Part shown: in pieces, positions 12,619 through 21,924 of the stretch
Layout of the letters: every line of letters begins with the position of its first letter
How positions within the stretch are numbered: the stretch's first letter is position 1
Assembly (NCBI RefSeq): GCF_023101685.1
Contig: NZ_CP082164.1
Coordinates: 7,130,001 to 7,194,000 of the forward strand
Reading direction: 5' to 3'
Origin: Bradyrhizobium sp. 186
Lineage (GTDB): Bacteria; Pseudomonadota; Alphaproteobacteria; Rhizobiales; Xanthobacteraceae
DNA: 64,000 nucleotides
The notes under the pieces: generated by a model
Seen by the model: only the letters and a program-made list of their open reading frames with translations
What the model was told of the DNA's origin: nothing
Database searches by the model: none
Program-made: the position numbers and the translations under genes

Positions 12619-15600
12619 TCAATGAAAATCCCGCGACGGCGGCAGGATGCGGACGTTGCGGGGGTGGCGGATTTTTTGCGCGGGTGTATCGGCGTGGTCG
12701 CGGCGGTCGTCGTTGAGCGGCTCGATCAGGGCGGCGCCTGATGGCACCGGATGCTTGCGGCTCAGCGCATCATTGGCGAGGCCGATCAGATCGTGCGAGC
12801 GGTCGACCATGCGCTGGGCGATGAGATGTGTCACCTTTTCGGGGCTGCTTTGGATATAACCTTCGACCAGAATGAGGCGCGCGCCCATCACCTCTTTCCG
12901 GTACTGCTCCATGATCTTGGGCCACACCACGACATTGGCGATGCCGGTTTCGTCCTCCAGCGTCATGAACACGACGCCGCTGGCGCTGCCCGGCCGCTGC
13001 CGCACCAGCACCACGCCGGCGCAGCGGACGCGGCGCCGCTCGTTCTCATGACTAATGTCCTTGCAGGCGACGACACGCTCTCGCGAAAACATCTCGCGCA
13101 AAAATTCCATCGGGTGGCCTTTGAGTGAAAGCCGGATGGTCTGGTAGTCGGCGACCACCTGTTCGGCGCGCGGCATCACCGGCAACGGTTTTGCATGCTC
13201 GTCCGGCTGCTCGCGCGCGGTGGCCGCCTCGAACAACGGCAGCGGCACGTCGTCGGGCAGCCGCCGCACCTGCCACAGCGCCTCGCGGCGATCGAGCCCG
13301 AGCGAGCGGAACGCATCGGCGTCCGCGAGCAGGATCAGCGCGCGTTTGGGCAGGCCGGTGTCGCGGGCAAAGTCTTCCAGCGAGGTGAAGGGCCGGCGAT
13401 TGCGGGCGGCGACGATGCGGTCGGCCCAGTCCTCCTTCACCTCCCCCGCTTGCGGAGGAGGCCGCATCGCATCGAAAGATGCGATGCGGGTGGGGGCTCT
13501 CTCCTCTTGGGGAGCGTGAATCGCGGAGGCACCCCCTCCCCAACCCTCCCCCGCAAGCGGGAGAGGGAGCGCAATCCCGTCGTGGCTCGCGCTTTGCGCG
13601 CCCCGGAATGACAACTGAATTTGCTTCAACCGCTCCTCATCCTGGTCCAGCCAGTGAAAGCCATCGATCTGGCGGAAGCCCAAGCGGACGGCGCAGTATT
13701 TGCCGTCACTCTCTTCCATCGTGTTCTGCGCGAAGCTAAAGGACACGTCGATGTCACGCACCTCGACGCCGTTCTTGCGGGCATCGCTGACGATTTGCGC
13801 CGGGGCGTAAAAGCCCATCGGCTGCGAATTCAGCAGACCGCAGCAAAACGCGTCGGGGTGGTAATGTTTCAGCCAAGAGGAGATGTAGACGAGCTGCGCG
13901 AAGCTCGCGGCATGGCTTTCCGGGAAGCCGTAGGAGCCAAAGCCCTTGATCTGGTCGAAACAGCTTCTGGCGAAGTCGGCATTGTAGCCGCGCGCAACCA
14001 TGTTGCCGATCAGCTTGTCCTCGTATTTGCCGATGGTACCGACATTGCGGAAGGTTGCCATCGAGCGACGCAGGCCGTTGGCTTCCTCGGAGGTGAATTT
14101 TGCCGCCTCGATCGCGATGCGCATTGCCTGTTCCTGGAACAGGGGCACGCCCTTTGTCTTGTGCAGAACCTTGTAAAGCTCATCTGCGGGACCATGCTCG
14201 GGCGATGGCGAGGGATAGCTCACTTTCTCCTGGCCGTTCCGCCGCCGCAAATATGGATGCACCATGTCGCCCTGGATCGGCCCCGGACGCACGATCGCGA
14301 CTTCGATCACGAGATCGTAGAACGTCCGCGGTTTCAGGCGCGGCAGCATGTTCATCTGCGCACGGCTTTCGACCTGAAATACGCCGAGAGATTCTCCCCG
14401 CTGTAGCATTTGATAAACTTCGTCGTCATCCTTCGATTTGATATCCGCAAGCTCGTAACGCTTGCCTTTGTGATCCGCGATCAAGTCAAAGCACTTGCGG
14501 ATGCAGGTCAGCATGCCCAGCGCGAGCACGTCGACCTTCATCATGTTGAGCGCGTCGACATCGTCCTTGTCCCATTCGATGAAGGTGCGATCGTCCATCG
14601 CGGCGTTGCCGATCGGCACATAGCTGTCGAGCCGGTCCTGCGTGAGCACATAGCCGCCGACATGCTGCGAGAGATGGCGCGGGAATTCGATCAGCTCGGT
14701 CGCAAGCTCGACCGCAAGGTTGATCATGGGATTTTGCGGATCGAGGCCGGCCTGCTTGACCTGCATGTCGTTGAGGCCCTTGCCCCAGCTTCCCCAGACG
14801 GTGTCGGCGAGTGCGGCGGTGACGTCCTCGGTCAGGCCCAGCGCCTTGCCGACGTCGCGGATGGCGCTGCGCGGACGATAGTGGATGACGGTGGCGATGA
14901 TCGCGGCGCGGTGACGGCCGTAGCGGCGATAGACATATTGCATCACCTCCTCGCGCCGCGAATGCTCGAAATCGACGTCGATATCCGGCGGCTCCAGCCG
15001 CTCCTTGGAGATGAAGCGCTCGAACAACAGATCGACCTGGGTCGGATCGACCGAGGTGATGCCGAGCACGTAGCAGACCGCTGAGTTCGCCGCCGATCCC
15101 CGCCCCTGGCACAAAATGTTCTGGCTGCGCGCGTAGTGCACGATGTCGTGCACGGTGAGGAAATAATGCGCGTATTTCAGCTCGGCGATCAGCGCGAGCT
15201 CTTTCTTGAGGGTAGCGCGAAGCTTGTCGTCGATGTTGCCGCCGAAATATTTTTGTACGCCTGCCCGGGTCAGGTCCTCCAGATGGCCTTGCGCCGTCTT
15301 GCCCGGCGGCACCGGCTCGTCCGGATACTGGTATTTGAGCTGGTCGAGCGAGAAGTCGATTTTGTCCGCAAAGCGCATCGTCTCCGCGACCGCCTCGGGA
15401 AAATCGCGGAACAGCCGCGACATTTCCCTGGGAGTCTTCAAGAACCGTTCGGCATTGGCCTCGAGCTTCCTGCCGACCGCCTCGATCGTGGTCTTTTCCC
15501 GGATGCAGGTCAGCACGTCCTGGAGGGGACGGCGTGCGGGATGGTGATAGAGCACCTCGTTGGTCGCGAGCAACGGCACCTTTGCCGTCGCCGCGAGATC

Positions 15601-16143
15601 ATCAAGCCGCGCCAGGCGACGCCGGTCGTCGCCGCGATAGATCAGGCTCGCCGCGAGCCACACGCCTTCGGCGCGAGTCGCCTTCAGCCTCGCGAGAATG
15701 TCCTGCGCTTGCACGGCATCAAAATGATGCGGCAACGTCAGGACCAAAAGCTGGCCTTCCGAAAACGCCAGGAGATCGGTGAAGGTGAGATGGCACTCCC
15801 CCTTTTCGATCCGCGTGATGTCGTCGCCACGCTTGCCCATGGTGAGAAGCCGGCAGAGCCGGCCGTAGGCGGCGCGGTCACGCGGATAGACCAGGATGTC
15901 GGGCGTGCCGTCGATGAAGACGATGCGCGCGCCGATCAGGAGTTTTGGCTTGTGCAGCACCTCGGCATTGTCGAGTTCCTTGTAGGCGCGCACCACGCCG
16001 GCGAGCGTGTTGTGATCGGCGATGCCGATCGCGGGGATACCGAGGATGCTGGCCTGGTGCACATAGGCGCGCGGATCCGAGCCTCCGCGCAGGAAGGAAA
16101 AATTGGTGGTGATGCCGATCTCGGCATAGGCTGATGTCGTCAT
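12619..16143 (-). CDS. dnaE2: error-prone DNA polymerase DnaE2, carrying an in-frame repeat insertion
   Basis: A C-family polymerase used with ImuA and ImuB for SOS-induced translesion synthesis. The N-terminal PHP domain starts EIGITTNFSFLRGGSDP; the polymerase core contains GRGSAANSAVCYVLGI and PPDIDVDFEH, whose acidic residues bind metal; a helix-hairpin-helix and an OB-fold domain follow. ATG 16143 overlaps the imuB stop (ATGA); a longer frame to 16485 is antisense-like sequence inside imuB. At 1174 residues it is about 60-90 longer than the usual 1080-1110, which residues about 842-902 explain: they are encoded by palindromic repeat DNA (see 13436-13618). Whether the product is active is unknown. 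Confidence 0.93.
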   Translation of the reverse strand: MTTSAYAEIGITTNFSFLRGGSDPRAYVHQASILGIPAIGIADHNTLAGVVRAYKELDNAEVLHKPKLLIGARIVFIDGTPDILVYPRDRAAYGRLCRLLTMGKRGDDITRIEKGECHLTFTDLLAFSEGQLLVLTLPHHFDAVQAQDILARLKATRAEGVWLAASLIYRGDDRRRLARLDDLAATAKVPLLATNEVLYHHPARRPLQDVLTCIREKTTIEAVGRKLEANAERFLKTPREMSRLFRDFPEAVAETMRFADKIDFSLDQLKYQYPDEPVPPGKTAQGHLEDLTRAGVQKYFGGNIDDKLRATLKKELALIAELKYAHYFLTVHDIVHYARSQNILCQGRGSAANSAVCYVLGITSVDPTQVDLLFERFISKERLEPPDIDVDFEHSRREEVMQYVYRRYGRHRAAIIATVIHYRPRSAIRDVGKALGLTEDVTAALADTVWGSWGKGLNDMQVKQAGLDPQNPMINLAVELATELIEFPRHLSQHVGGYVLTQDRLDSYVPIGNAAMDDRTFIEWDKDDVDALNMMKVDVLALGMLTCIRKCFDLIADHKGKRYELADIKSKDDDEVYQMLQRGESLGVFQVESRAQMNMLPRLKPRTFYDLVIEVAIVRPGPIQGDMVHPYLRRRNGQEKVSYPSPSPEHGPADELYKVLHKTKGVPLFQEQAMRIAIEAAKFTSEEANGLRRSMATFRNVGTIGKYEDKLIGNMVARGYNADFARSCFDQIKGFGSYGFPESHAASFAQLVYISSWLKHYHPDAFCCGLLNSQPMGFYAPAQIVSDARKNGVEVRDIDVSFSFAQNTMEESDGKYCAVRLGFRQIDGFHWLDQDEERLKQIQLSFRGAQSASHDGIALPLPLAGEGWGGGASAIHAPQEERAPTRIASFDAMRPPPQAGEVKEDWADRIVAARNRRPFTSLEDFARDTGLPKRALILLADADAFRSLGLDRREALWQVRRLPDDVPLPLFEAATAREQPDEHAKPLPVMPRAEQVVADYQTIRLSLKGHPMEFLREMFSRERVVACKDISHENERRRVRCAGVVLVRQRPGSASGVVFMTLEDETGIANVVVWPKIMEQYRKEVMGARLILVEGYIQSSPEKVTHLIAQRMVDRSHDLIGLANDALSRKHPVPSGAALIEPLNDDRRDHADTPAQKIRHPRNVRILPPSRDFH
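13436..13618. repeat. palindromic repeat DNA inserted in frame inside dnaE2
   Basis: The stretch contains CTCCCCCGCTTGCGGAGGAG at 13441-13460, a perfect 10-base stem GCATCGCATC-gaaa-GATGCGATGC at 13464-13487, and CTCCCCCGCAAGCGGGAGAG at 13545-13564, followed by a second repeat-like block ending CGCCCCGGAATGACAA. The same kind of unit occurs between genes at 21776-21924. Here it reads through in frame and encodes residues such as PLPLAGEGWGGG and RPPPQAGEV, between DnaE2 segments EERLKQI and EDWADRIV. Ends are approximate to about 10 bases. Confidence 0.8.
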
Positions 16144-17792
16144 GCGAAGAGGCCGTGAACATACCAGTTGGCGGGAACGGGCTTGCCTTCCTCGTCGATG
16201 AGCTCGCTGTCGTAGAGACCGTCGCGAAAAATCCAGAAGCGCAGGCCTTCGGCATCCTCGACGCGAAAATAATCCCGCGTCAGTTGCCTGTCGTCCTGCC
16301 GCCACCATTCCATGGCGACGCGCTCGGGCCCTTCCACCCGCGCCACCGCATGCAGCGCGCGACGCCAGGTGAATTGATGCGGGGCTCCGTCCGGTACGGA
16401 CGCGAACGGCACCTTGATCGGCTCCGGTCTGTCGAACATGCGCAAGGGCCGCAGCGGCGGTTCGCTCTCGACGCGCGTCGGCCATTCGGCCTGCATGGCG
16501 ACAGCCAGGTGGTGCTGCGCTGATACGGCCAGCACTGCGCGCTCGGGGATATGGGTGTCCTGCGGCAGGTGCACGACAACGCGTTTGCCGCCGATGCGCG
16601 CGGCGATGCGGTCGATCAGCGCGGCGAGCTCGTCATTGTCGTGGACATGGGCATCGAGATCGCGCTGCTCCTGCACCACGATCTCGGTGCGGCTCGCCGA
16701 CAGCCGCACCATGTCGAAGCCGAAGCCGGGATCCAGGGGATCGGCGAGCGCATCGAGGTGCTCGCGAAACAGGCGGTCGATGACCGCGCTTCGCGTCACC
16801 GGTCGCCCGGTCTCGACCATGATCGCGCGCACCGCGCCGTCGGTGCGGAAGAAGGCGGCCTCTAACCGTCGCGCGCCCTTGCCCTGTTTTTCCATGGAAG
16901 CGATCAACGTATCGGCGAGCCGCGACAGCGTCATCGCGATCATGGTGTCGGTCGCGATCGGCTCGGCAAAGCGTTTTTCCACGATGTAGTCGGGCAGCGG
17001 TTTTCGCGGCCTGATCGGCGCATCGCCCTGCCCCAGCGCATGCGCGAGCTGCGTGGAGAACCGCGCGCCGAAACGCGCCGTGATTTCGTGGGAGCTGCGG
17101 GAAGCGACATCGCCGATGGTTTTCAGGCCTGCCCGGCGCAGGCCGGTGGTGATGGCCTCGCCGGCACCGAGCGCGGACACCGGGAAGGCGCTGATCGCCT
17201 CCGTCTCCCCGCCATCGGCCACGATGGTGCTATGTGCCTGCCGCGTCAGCGTGCGCGCGCAGACCGAGGTGCCGGCGATCGCCGCGCTGACGGCAAAGCC
17301 CTGCCGGGCAAGCGCGCGGACCAGCGCCTGCAACAGCGCGGCTTCCCCGCCGAACAGATGCGCGCAGCCGGTGATATCCAGGAACAGCCCGTGCGGCGGA
17401 TCGAGCGCGACCAGCGGGGTGAAGCGATCGCACCAGTCGGCGATGTCGCTGAGCGTTTTTGCATCGGCCGCGACATCGGCGTCGAAAACTTTCAGGTCCG
17501 GGCACATCGCCCGGGCATTGGCCAAGGGTTGGCCGATATGCAGGCCAAGACGCTCGGCAGCCTCATCCAGCGCATGGATCACCAGCGCATTGTTGTCCTT
17601 GGCGACGACGATGCTGGGCTCGTCTTTTTGTTTTGACGCGTTTTCTTCACGCGAACCGGCGTCCACTTCGCTTGAAAACGCTTTGCCCTTATCCAGCCCG
17701 ACGTTGCTGAAGAAGCGCTGGATCCGATCGATGGGCAGGCGCGGCAGCCACAGGCTGAGGATACGCCGGCGATTCACTGAACTGGCACTCAT
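16140..17792 (-). CDS. imuB: Y-family polymerase-like protein ImuB
   Basis: A 550-residue member of the DinB/Y-family polymerases, in the inactive ImuB branch that bridges DnaE2 and the beta clamp. The N-terminus reads RRILSLWLPRLPIDRI where active Y-family enzymes have a catalytic Asp pair, and LFLDITGCAHLFGG replaces the usual SxDE motif, so no catalytic acids are seen. ATG 17792 (MSASSVNRRR) is chosen; the extension upstream lies within imuA. The gene overlaps imuA by 104 bases and dnaE2 by 4 (ATGA), giving a translationally coupled three-gene SOS cassette. Confidence 0.92.
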   Translation of the reverse strand: MSASSVNRRRILSLWLPRLPIDRIQRFFSNVGLDKGKAFSSEVDAGSREENASKQKDEPSIVVAKDNNALVIHALDEAAERLGLHIGQPLANARAMCPDLKVFDADVAADAKTLSDIADWCDRFTPLVALDPPHGLFLDITGCAHLFGGEAALLQALVRALARQGFAVSAAIAGTSVCARTLTRQAHSTIVADGGETEAISAFPVSALGAGEAITTGLRRAGLKTIGDVASRSSHEITARFGARFSTQLAHALGQGDAPIRPRKPLPDYIVEKRFAEPIATDTMIAMTLSRLADTLIASMEKQGKGARRLEAAFFRTDGAVRAIMVETGRPVTRSAVIDRLFREHLDALADPLDPGFGFDMVRLSASRTEIVVQEQRDLDAHVHDNDELAALIDRIAARIGGKRVVVHLPQDTHIPERAVLAVSAQHHLAVAMQAEWPTRVESEPPLRPLRMFDRPEPIKVPFASVPDGAPHQFTWRRALHAVARVEGPERVAMEWWRQDDRQLTRDYFRVEDAEGLRFWIFRDGLYDSELIDEEGKPVPANWYVHGLFA

Positions 17793-18477
17793 CACATTTC
17801 CATTCCATGATCCACCGGCCACATGGGCCATGACGATTGCGAATGAGCTCGGCATCGAAGCGCGGCGCGCCCCAGACACTCCACATCGCCCCTGGCGGCG
17901 AATGCGCCGCACGCAGCATCCATCGTGTCTCCGCGGTCGACGGCAGCGGCTGCGCCGCCATGCGCAGCAGCAGGCCAGTTACGCCTGAAGACTGCGCGGC
18001 CAACGTCAGCTTGCGGCTCGCCACGAGATCGAACTGTCTGATTTCACCCCAGAGCTCGAGCACCACGGCACCCAGCGCATCGCAAGCGAGCGCATCGGCC
18101 GAAGTGCGCAGCGCACTCTCCACGTCGGCGGCGCGCACCATCACCACACGGCGCGGATCAAGCCCAAGCTCGGCAAGCCCGTGCATCGACAGCGCGCCTG
18201 TTTCCATGTCCAAAAAATCCTGCCGCACCCACAGCAGCGGTTTGCGTGCCGTCACGCGGCCCGCAAGTCCCGTGACAAAACCCGTCGCGGCCGCGCCCTG
18301 GCGGCCCTCGCAAAACACCTCATGGATCGCCGCGCGCGCAAGCCCGCCCTTCAGCGCGCTGTCGACCTCGCCATGGCCAAGCGCGACGCGATCGCGCTGG
18401 TGCACGACCTCCGCCGTCTCGATGCGCTCGATCTGGCCGCGCAAGGTCGCAAGCGCGCTGATGCGTGCGCCGCTCAT
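17689..18477 (-). CDS. imuA: SOS mutagenesis protein ImuA
   Basis: A 262-residue RecA-like protein that acts with ImuB and DnaE2 in damage-induced mutagenesis. Typical features are a short N-terminal helix region (ARISALATLRGQIERIE), the segment GGLARAAIHEVFCEGRQGAAATGF in place of a Walker A loop, and VVLELWGEIRQFDLVASRKLTLAAQSSGVTGLLLR. It is the first gene of the cassette, with a LexA box 64 bases upstream of its start. The C-terminal 35 codons overlap the start of imuB in another frame, a larger overlap than usual, so the last residues may be less conserved. Confidence 0.88.
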   Translation of the reverse strand: MSGARISALATLRGQIERIETAEVVHQRDRVALGHGEVDSALKGGLARAAIHEVFCEGRQGAAATGFVTGLAGRVTARKPLLWVRQDFLDMETGALSMHGLAELGLDPRRVVMVRAADVESALRTSADALACDALGAVVLELWGEIRQFDLVASRKLTLAAQSSGVTGLLLRMAAQPLPSTAETRWMLRAAHSPPGAMWSVWGAPRFDAELIRNRHGPCGRWIMEWKCDECQFSESPAYPQPVAAAPAHRSDPALLQQRRAG

Positions 18478-21775: not shown

Positions 21776-21924
21776 TCCTCTCCCTCCCCGTTCTTACGGG
21801 GAGAGGGTTGGGGTGAGGGGCTACTGCTGCGATCACGGTGGGAGACGGACTCGCGGAGAGTCCCCCTCACCCGGAATTCAAGCTGCGCTTGAATTCCGAC
21901 CTTTCCCCGCAAGCGGGGCGAGGT
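21776..21924. repeat. palindromic intergenic repeat, same type as the dnaE2 insertion
   Basis: The unit contains CTCCCCGttcttaCGGGGAG (about 21784-21802), a perfect 11-base stem GGAATTCAAGC-tgc-GCTTGAATTCC at 21873-21897, and TTTCCCCGCAAGCGGGG at 21902-21918. It fills the gap between convergent pit and the M20 amidohydrolase gene. The outer stems match those of the element within dnaE2; the central hairpin differs. It could also help end transcription from both sides. Confidence 0.65.

Follow-up and report, generated by a model that had tools for sequence, protein, structure and literature searches.

The dnaE2 gene and the palindromic insert in the window

We analysed a 64,000-nucleotide stretch of DNA from Bradyrhizobium sp. 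186 (hereafter the window; contig NZ_CP082164.1, positions 7,130,001 to 7,194,000), which belongs to a genome of 10.77 Mb. The window carries dnaE2, which codes for an error-prone polymerase that we take, from its family, to be an SOS enzyme. A mechanically called open reading frame on the minus strand (12619-16485, 1288 aa) runs uninterrupted across a palindromic stretch at 13436-13618, as a preliminary description of this DNA had proposed, and Pfam Pol III alpha domains flank the stretch on either side. The domains found in the protein are PHP, DNA_pol3_alpha, DNA_pol3_finger, HHH_6 and the OB fold. Among proteins of known structure its best relatives are Pol III alpha chains, and its close named relatives come mostly from Bradyrhizobium. 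If the protein starts at MTTSAYAEIG (16146), the roughly 60 residues previously described as added are correctly placed, at 843-903. Upstream of dnaE2 lie two ORFs, 16140-17912 and 17689-18477, that resemble what we take to be imuB and imuA. The features that we discuss are the following.

12619..16146, minus strand: dnaE2, error-prone Pol III alpha-type polymerase, 1175 aa from MTTSAYAEIG (ORF, Pfam, PDB relatives)
13432..13644, minus strand: variable linker of dnaE2, 71 codons in the window, between the conserved ...RLGFRQIDGFHWLD and DWADRIVAAR...
13441..13572, minus strand: core of a family A palindromic element, read ALPLPLAGEGWGGG...RPPPQAGE, at 40 or more places in the genome including its own
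13584..13631, minus strand: family B remnant (CGTC-type, Br-REP2-like), read LSFRGAQSASH, nhmmer E 1e-12
13440..13566, no strand assigned: inverted repeat with arms 13440-13461 and 13545-13566 and an inner perfect hairpin at 13462-13489
21776..21924, no strand assigned: palindrome between genes, broadly of the same type, E 2.4e-11 with the A model and E 8.7e-5 with the D model, predicted fold -88 kcal/mol

Palindromic DNA makes up most of the 71-codon linker. The two 22-nt arms are 91% complementary at a spacing of 83 nt and are accompanied by a perfect 12-nt hairpin. The predicted fold of 13436-13618 reaches -102.7 kcal/mol. Searching Rfam at gathering thresholds, we found no match in the window, and a search of a plasmid collection with dnaE2 returned only homologous polymerase genes of lower identity.

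The insert had been thought to join two repeat types and perhaps to have grown in two steps, and our analysis supports both two types and stepwise growth. The family B model, built without the linker of the window, picks out the remnant listed above, while the family A model, which was made from dnaE2 linkers including that of the window, matches 13428-13643 (E 8.2e-65). The window insert is thus a truncated CGTC-type repeat (family B), then family A. Searching the genome at nucleotide level showed that the segment is multi-copy and not single-copy: 13436-13618 gives at least 46 matches at E<=0.001 among the best 40 of 219 candidates. Since six of these rows repeat a listed place in its reverse reading, they amount to at least 40 places including the insert itself, so that at least 39 places elsewhere resemble it. 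Family B gives at least 75-76 matches in the same genome among the best 40 candidates, with both palindrome readings counted. The palindrome at 21776-21924 had been called the same type as the insert. It is of the same general type, but the likeness is looser than claimed; because the A model reaches only E 2.4e-11, we regard it as a cousin and no close copy of A. It contains a 12-bp hairpin (CGGAATTCAAGC/GCTTGAATTCCG), shows weak likeness to families A and D, and follows an ORF that by eye resembles a putative phosphate transporter.

We also checked the dispersed copies for their fitness as coding DNA. Of the 29 dispersed A copies among the matches listed in this genome, 28 are free of stops in the frame used by dnaE2, and this near absence of stops would make capture of the element easy. 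The net length difference from the dnaE2 copy is not a multiple of three in 23 of the 29, so most copies would break the frame if exchanged one-for-one. Checking for other genes that carry an element, we found no Pfam domain spanning an A copy in 10 chosen long open frames at 9 of the 29 dispersed copies, and none across a B copy in six frames with at least 60 aa on both sides, among 23 copies; in all three domain-bearing test frames (both frames of L030 and that of L357) the domain starts after the copy. Two further ideas were rejected. Family B does not appear to be a general landing pad for A, as none of the 29 dispersed A copies is nested in a detectable B, a comparison that short B fragments could escape. 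Conversion from the strain's own genome was not favoured either, for the family B insert of genome G052 is at best 84-85% identical to the listed B copies of its own genome and up to 89% to those of other genomes.

Occupancy and turnover of the linker across Bradyrhizobium

Extending the comparison to the genus, we found the DnaE2 region in 260 of 265 genomes searched and read the linker in 248; the 17 genomes left out comprise five without a match, three whose contig ends within the linker (G122, G231, G133) and nine that were not fetched or parsed. Linker length varies between 16 and 137 codons. By DNA comparison, 205 of the 248 genomes hold one of the families A-D or a remnant there, namely B in 141 (including 10 remnants shorter than 35 codons), D in 26, A in 25, C in 11 and both A and C in two, with G068 and G081 assigned by eye from a peptide motif. 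The insert is therefore no private event of a single strain but one filling of a site used by at least four families. No repeat, or a trace only, was found in 41 genomes, 37 of which have a repeat-free 22-codon linker of the type PDEEFLKKEQAKRQGKVYVTQE. The remaining four are G165 (16 codons), G113 and G190, which look like B remnants, and the doubtful G223. Two linkers stayed unclassified (G118, G225). The only stop among the 248 linkers is an in-frame TAA in the family D insert of G126 (L175).

All four families are multi-copy in genomes that carry them. We counted at least 29 matches of family C in G069 and 50 or more in G155, at least 40 of family D in G096 and at least 83 in G127, and at least 76 of family B both in G052 and in the genome of the window, where family A gives at least 46; these counts include the insert itself, both palindrome readings and fragments, among the best 40 candidates per genome. 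A loose motif for a B-like head precedes the insert in 23/25 A, 8/11 C and 17/26 D linkers, which suggests that B came first.

Some records stood out during this survey. L385, titled Frankia sp. RB7, carries a Bradyrhizobium-type dnaE2 (86% in the best segment) with a 22-codon linker, so that a wrong title or a mixed sample is probable. A second DnaE2-like match of 63-64% identity occurs in G016, G113, G131 and G194. The tblastn match to DnaE2, usually 3.3-3.6 kb long, extends over about 5.1-5.3 kb in L392, L414 and L427, where there seems to be a second matching piece on one side.

Building a FastTree phylogeny from the dnaE2 flanks with the linker removed (254 rows, including six from outside the genus), we estimated by parsimony the minimum number of family changes, a count that does not tell gain from loss. 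It is 77 when six doubtful rows are left open, and 81 when the doubtful rows are classed as they stood and two others are given their own state. Accepting only branches with support of at least 95 lowers it to 65, and only those with support 100 to 32. Before any branch is collapsed, the rows of the genus by themselves require 74. The nearest relative is of the same family in 133 of the 254 rows, against a shuffled mean of 91.

These changes raise the question of whether strains mostly exchanged a few old alleles by homologous recombination instead of receiving fresh insertions. We consider this unlikely as the account of most changes. In its favour, the C inserts agree at about 95% between G069 and G155, against about 82% for the gene sequence next to them, and the repeat-free 22-codon linker is similar in its 37 genomes although these are scattered over the tree. 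The adjacent flank also predicts the family slightly better than a distant one does: among 239 rows (chance 0.38), the prediction is right in 0.54-0.60 within 60-150 nt, in 0.53-0.57 at 300-450 nt and in 0.46-0.50 from upstream flank at least 600 nt away. Part of the turnover is therefore descent plus allele exchange and not new insertion. However, a flank as close as 60 nt gives the right family for no more than 54-60% of the rows, and close pairs of unlike family differ in what their flanks show. G238 (family D) and G239 (family B) have flanks that are 97.2% identical, with 98-99% in the adjacent 150 nt; several such pairs, G006 and G092 among them, likewise lie within 94-99% in both adjacent 150-nt flanks, while others drop to 85-91% in one of them. 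The A inserts, moreover, show by eye several different 5′ junctions.

Vertical descent contributes too, for the similarity between B inserts falls with gene divergence when gaps are counted (rho 0.25). The idea that insert identity is independent of gene divergence was dropped, as it was partly an artefact of ignored gaps.

Hairpin retention and the encoded loop

The hairpins are retained at this site. Against 25 dinucleotide shuffles per linker, the fold z lies below -3 in 193 of the 207 linkers assigned to A-E (two of these 207 come from outside the genus) and in only one of 47 linkers without a classed repeat. The covariation analysis uses a four-helix consensus of 46 family B inserts, taken from the 60 that have 46-53 codons among the 141 B linkers in all. 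Of 1373 pair cells, 98.1% are paired, and two-sided changes occur at 10 of 30 pairs, in 65 cells against a shuffled mean of 17.1 and 0-14 in slid controls. As a general mode of change, in-place stem swapping was not upheld: among 27 close B pairs (flanks >=0.92), with 20 two-sided and 33 one-sided changes in total, a two-sided change is seen in 15, and none of these 15 has a spacer at least 85% identical. The only clear in-place swap is G047/G077, just under that flank cut, with an identical spacer, helix 4 exchanged at three pairs and two one-sided changes beside it. The paired hairpins fit renewal from other copies, whole-stem swapping, self-correction of palindromes or selection on the stem.

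Structure prediction was then used to look at the encoded peptide. A full-length model reached a mean pLDDT of 47 (38 sequences) and was set aside for a 371-residue fragment model (82 sequences; mean pLDDT 78). In the latter the loop has a pLDDT of 32-43, whereas the helix that precedes it scores 82-88 and the one that follows it 94-96, and residues 858-896 stay below 50 without secondary structure. The linker is thus predicted to be a disordered loop between two helices, and the earlier suggestion of an exposed loop agrees with this model as far as the loop is concerned. Pol III alpha chains rank first in a Foldseek search with the fragment (14 hits at E<=0.001); with TM-scores of 0.3-0.4 for the query, this search supports the family and not an exact superposition.

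The insert peptide is weakly constrained. pN/pS is 0.59 in the linker and 0.08 in the flanks for 33 close same-family pairs. These were chosen out of 235 pairs whose flanks share at least 92% identity, with no genome used twice and under a peptide identity threshold of >=60% that lowers pN. Comparing whole-frame lengths in fetched stretches of 13 genomes, we found open frames of 1087-1101 aa for the replicative paralogue DnaE1 in all 13 and of 1079-1151 aa for DnaE2. The preserved frame and the strongly constrained flanks suggest that the polymerase works with inserts in place.

Does the hairpin itself do something, either as an mRNA or DNA stem that tunes dnaE2 expression or through a peptide that modifies activity, along the lines of the mutator hypothesis of Di Nocera et al.? 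The strong folds that are nearly confined to classed linkers and the excess of two-sided changes in the B inserts speak for such a function. However, 41 of the 248 genomes do without a repeat or keep only a trace, families, lengths and peptides are interchangeable, the linker evolves at a pN/pS of 0.59, and self-correction of palindromes or renewal from genomic copies would yield the same pairing without selection. We therefore hold a functional hairpin to be improbable.

Related sites, known palindromes and probable origin of the inserts

Outside Bradyrhizobium, we examined 46 genomes of the same family (six plus forty). Other GC-rich, palindrome-like stretches stand at the same place in eight of them: G303 and G388, whose stretches fold with z of -5.6 and -6.7, and G429, G324, G345, G334, G363 and G372, which were judged palindrome-like from their peptides, by eye. 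The remaining family relatives have 0-23 linker codons; the exceptions are G337 and perhaps G430, where a change seems to lie slightly further downstream. The preliminary description had asked whether distant genera share the same 60 residues; the genera examined carry different stretches there.

A neighbouring site lies about 20 residues upstream, measured from a WDxxLE/QNTLE motif to RLGFR. We sampled 44 loci there, all but L401 outside Bradyrhizobium, and could read 30, 29 of them outside the genus. The stretch is at least 30 residues long in eight of these 29, instead of 8-15. Six of the eight form strong hairpins (z -3.9 to -11.7 from 15 simple shuffles, the value for L424 being measured over a misplaced longer stretch); five inserts, without L436, were also folded separately. 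The hairpin-forming inserts are in:

L424 and L449, Bosea
L441, Caulobacter
L447, Hephaestia
L436, a Caulobacteraceae MAG
L440, an alphaproteobacterial MAG

The long stretches of L438 and L446 lack a strong hairpin (z -1.4 and -2.2). In terms of lineages, upstream hairpin-forming inserts are thus found in some Bosea, Caulobacter and sphingomonad DnaE2, and their sequences differ between genera. Bosea and Bradyrhizobium are members of one order, and the other named lineages with inserts belong to other orders. In 250 Bradyrhizobium loci the upstream stretch has 9 residues in 225 and 27 in one, and the motif was not found in 24. Long hairpin inserts upstream outside Bradyrhizobium therefore indicate that the place used within this junction differs between lineages.

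The Rickettsia palindromic elements, which had been offered as a parallel, are found in many unrelated genes. Compared by description, the dnaE2 inserts resemble them as multi-copy palindromes standing in frame within a conserved gene. They differ in that dnaE2 offers one gene site to several families, and no other gene carrying A or B appeared among the copies tested.

Intragenic repetitive extragenic palindromes (REPs) have been described before. In the accessible part of their work, Di Nocera et al. (2013, PMC3733652) report them in genes including DnaE2 genes, a set that may well include a dnaE2 of Bradyrhizobium or Rhodopseudomonas. The same text suggests that such inserts occupy flexible linkers and that repeats in repair polymerases create mutators. 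It notes different REPs at about the same recB site in two Xanthomonas species, and no dedicated transposase for CGTC repeats is reported in it. It places RPE-4 and RPE-6 in the CGTC superfamily, gives R. conorii the most intragenic CGTC repeats and mentions atypical loops in Bradyrhizobium CGTC-1. According to this description, CGTC-type REPs have a CGTC/TGTC tag, an 8-9 bp stem starting with AT, a CCA tail and a 4-5 nt loop, and head-to-head dimers predominate.

Family B fits much of this picture. Its consensus from the 46 inserts reads (C/T)GTC-ATTCCGGG...CCCGGAAT-CCA and TGG-ATTCCGGG...CCCCGGAAT-GAC, a dimer with the tags outward. The TGTC/CGTC outer ends, the 8-bp ATTCCGGG stems that begin with AT and the CCA tails are as in the CGTC REPs of PMC3733652, but the loops hold an extra inner stem (helices 2 and 4) in place of 4-5 nt. 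Because of these inner-stem loops, we call B CGTC-type with an atypical loop and do not settle it in any of the four CGTC families. By eye, one half of family B lies close to the consensus ATTCCGGG...CCCCGGAATGA of Br-REP2 from Bradyrhizobium japonicum USDA 110, a repeat described from intergenic regions and 3′-UTRs in a paper whose text does not mention dnaE2 (Hahn et al. 2016, PMC5082802). The A core at 13441-13572 (CTCCCTCTCCCGC...GGGGGAGG) has no terminal GTAG or CGTC tag, so we did not file A under the REPs. The Rickettsia parallel is closer than first apparent for family B, since RPE-4 and RPE-6 fall in the CGTC superfamily (PMC3733652), and looser for family A.

The preliminary description knew of no account of such repeats in dnaE2 of this lineage. 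REPs in DnaE2 genes had been reported in 2013, whereas no report of multi-family turnover at one protein site across a genus turned up in the literature covered, from which subscription journals and preprints were absent. Judged by titles and the starts of abstracts, PMC3733652 is the only one of the papers found on dnaE2 and Bradyrhizobium that concerns repeats. Apart from the recB remark, the accessible text of PMC3733652 describes neither the refilling of one site by different families genus-wide nor hairpin covariation in coding copies. What is new, as far as we found, is the multi-family turnover at one site over the genus.

We think it probable that a permissive loop in an SOS polymerase tolerates palindromes that preserve the frame and has been rewritten repeatedly. 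The DnaE2 loop between two helices of the helix-hairpin-helix region, just past the finger domain, would accept almost any in-frame peptide. A CGTC-type palindromic repeat, family B, would have entered it early in the genus, and the palindromic families A, C and D would later have come in beside or within B. Further rewriting may have followed, in which both arms of a stem change together, pieces are deleted back and alleles are exchanged between strains, and frame-breaking changes would have been lost. The encoded peptide would be mostly a disordered spacer, presumably without a large effect on polymerase activity. This order of events, and the reading of single changes as gains or losses, we infer from the comparison of present-day linkers. 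Against a purely neutral spacer, two-sided hairpin changes are more numerous than predicted, unless palindromes correct themselves or are renewed.

That a single ancestral insertion was inherited vertically and diverged in the ordinary way is very improbable: B is the commonest family, its 5′ junction Q.SFRG recurs by eye in many lineages, B-B similarity keeps some phylogenetic signal and the first B event could still fit, but A, C and D contradict it, each being a multi-copy element in its own right that takes the place of B or interrupts it in scattered lineages, and relatives from other genera hold further palindrome-like stretches.

The permissive loop, as we read it, makes DnaE2 a natural record of non-coding repeat DNA turning into protein. 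One site offers about two hundred natural replicates, with several families, empty alleles, remnants and apparently nested insertions. This makes testable the rate at which repeat DNA becomes protein, the limits set by frame, stops and loop tolerance, and the self-correction of palindromes in coding DNA. It is relevant, too, to the idea put forward in 2013 that mutators arise from repeats in repair polymerases (PMC3733652, in its accessible part). A bolder and improbable extension is that the junction of the finger and helix-hairpin-helix regions of DnaE2 is a palindrome capture zone throughout the alphaproteobacteria, with two neighbouring sites used according to lineage, and that the retained hairpins act on dnaE2 as an mRNA or DNA stem. 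If this were true, mobile palindromes would repeatedly retune the cell's own mutation-making polymerase.
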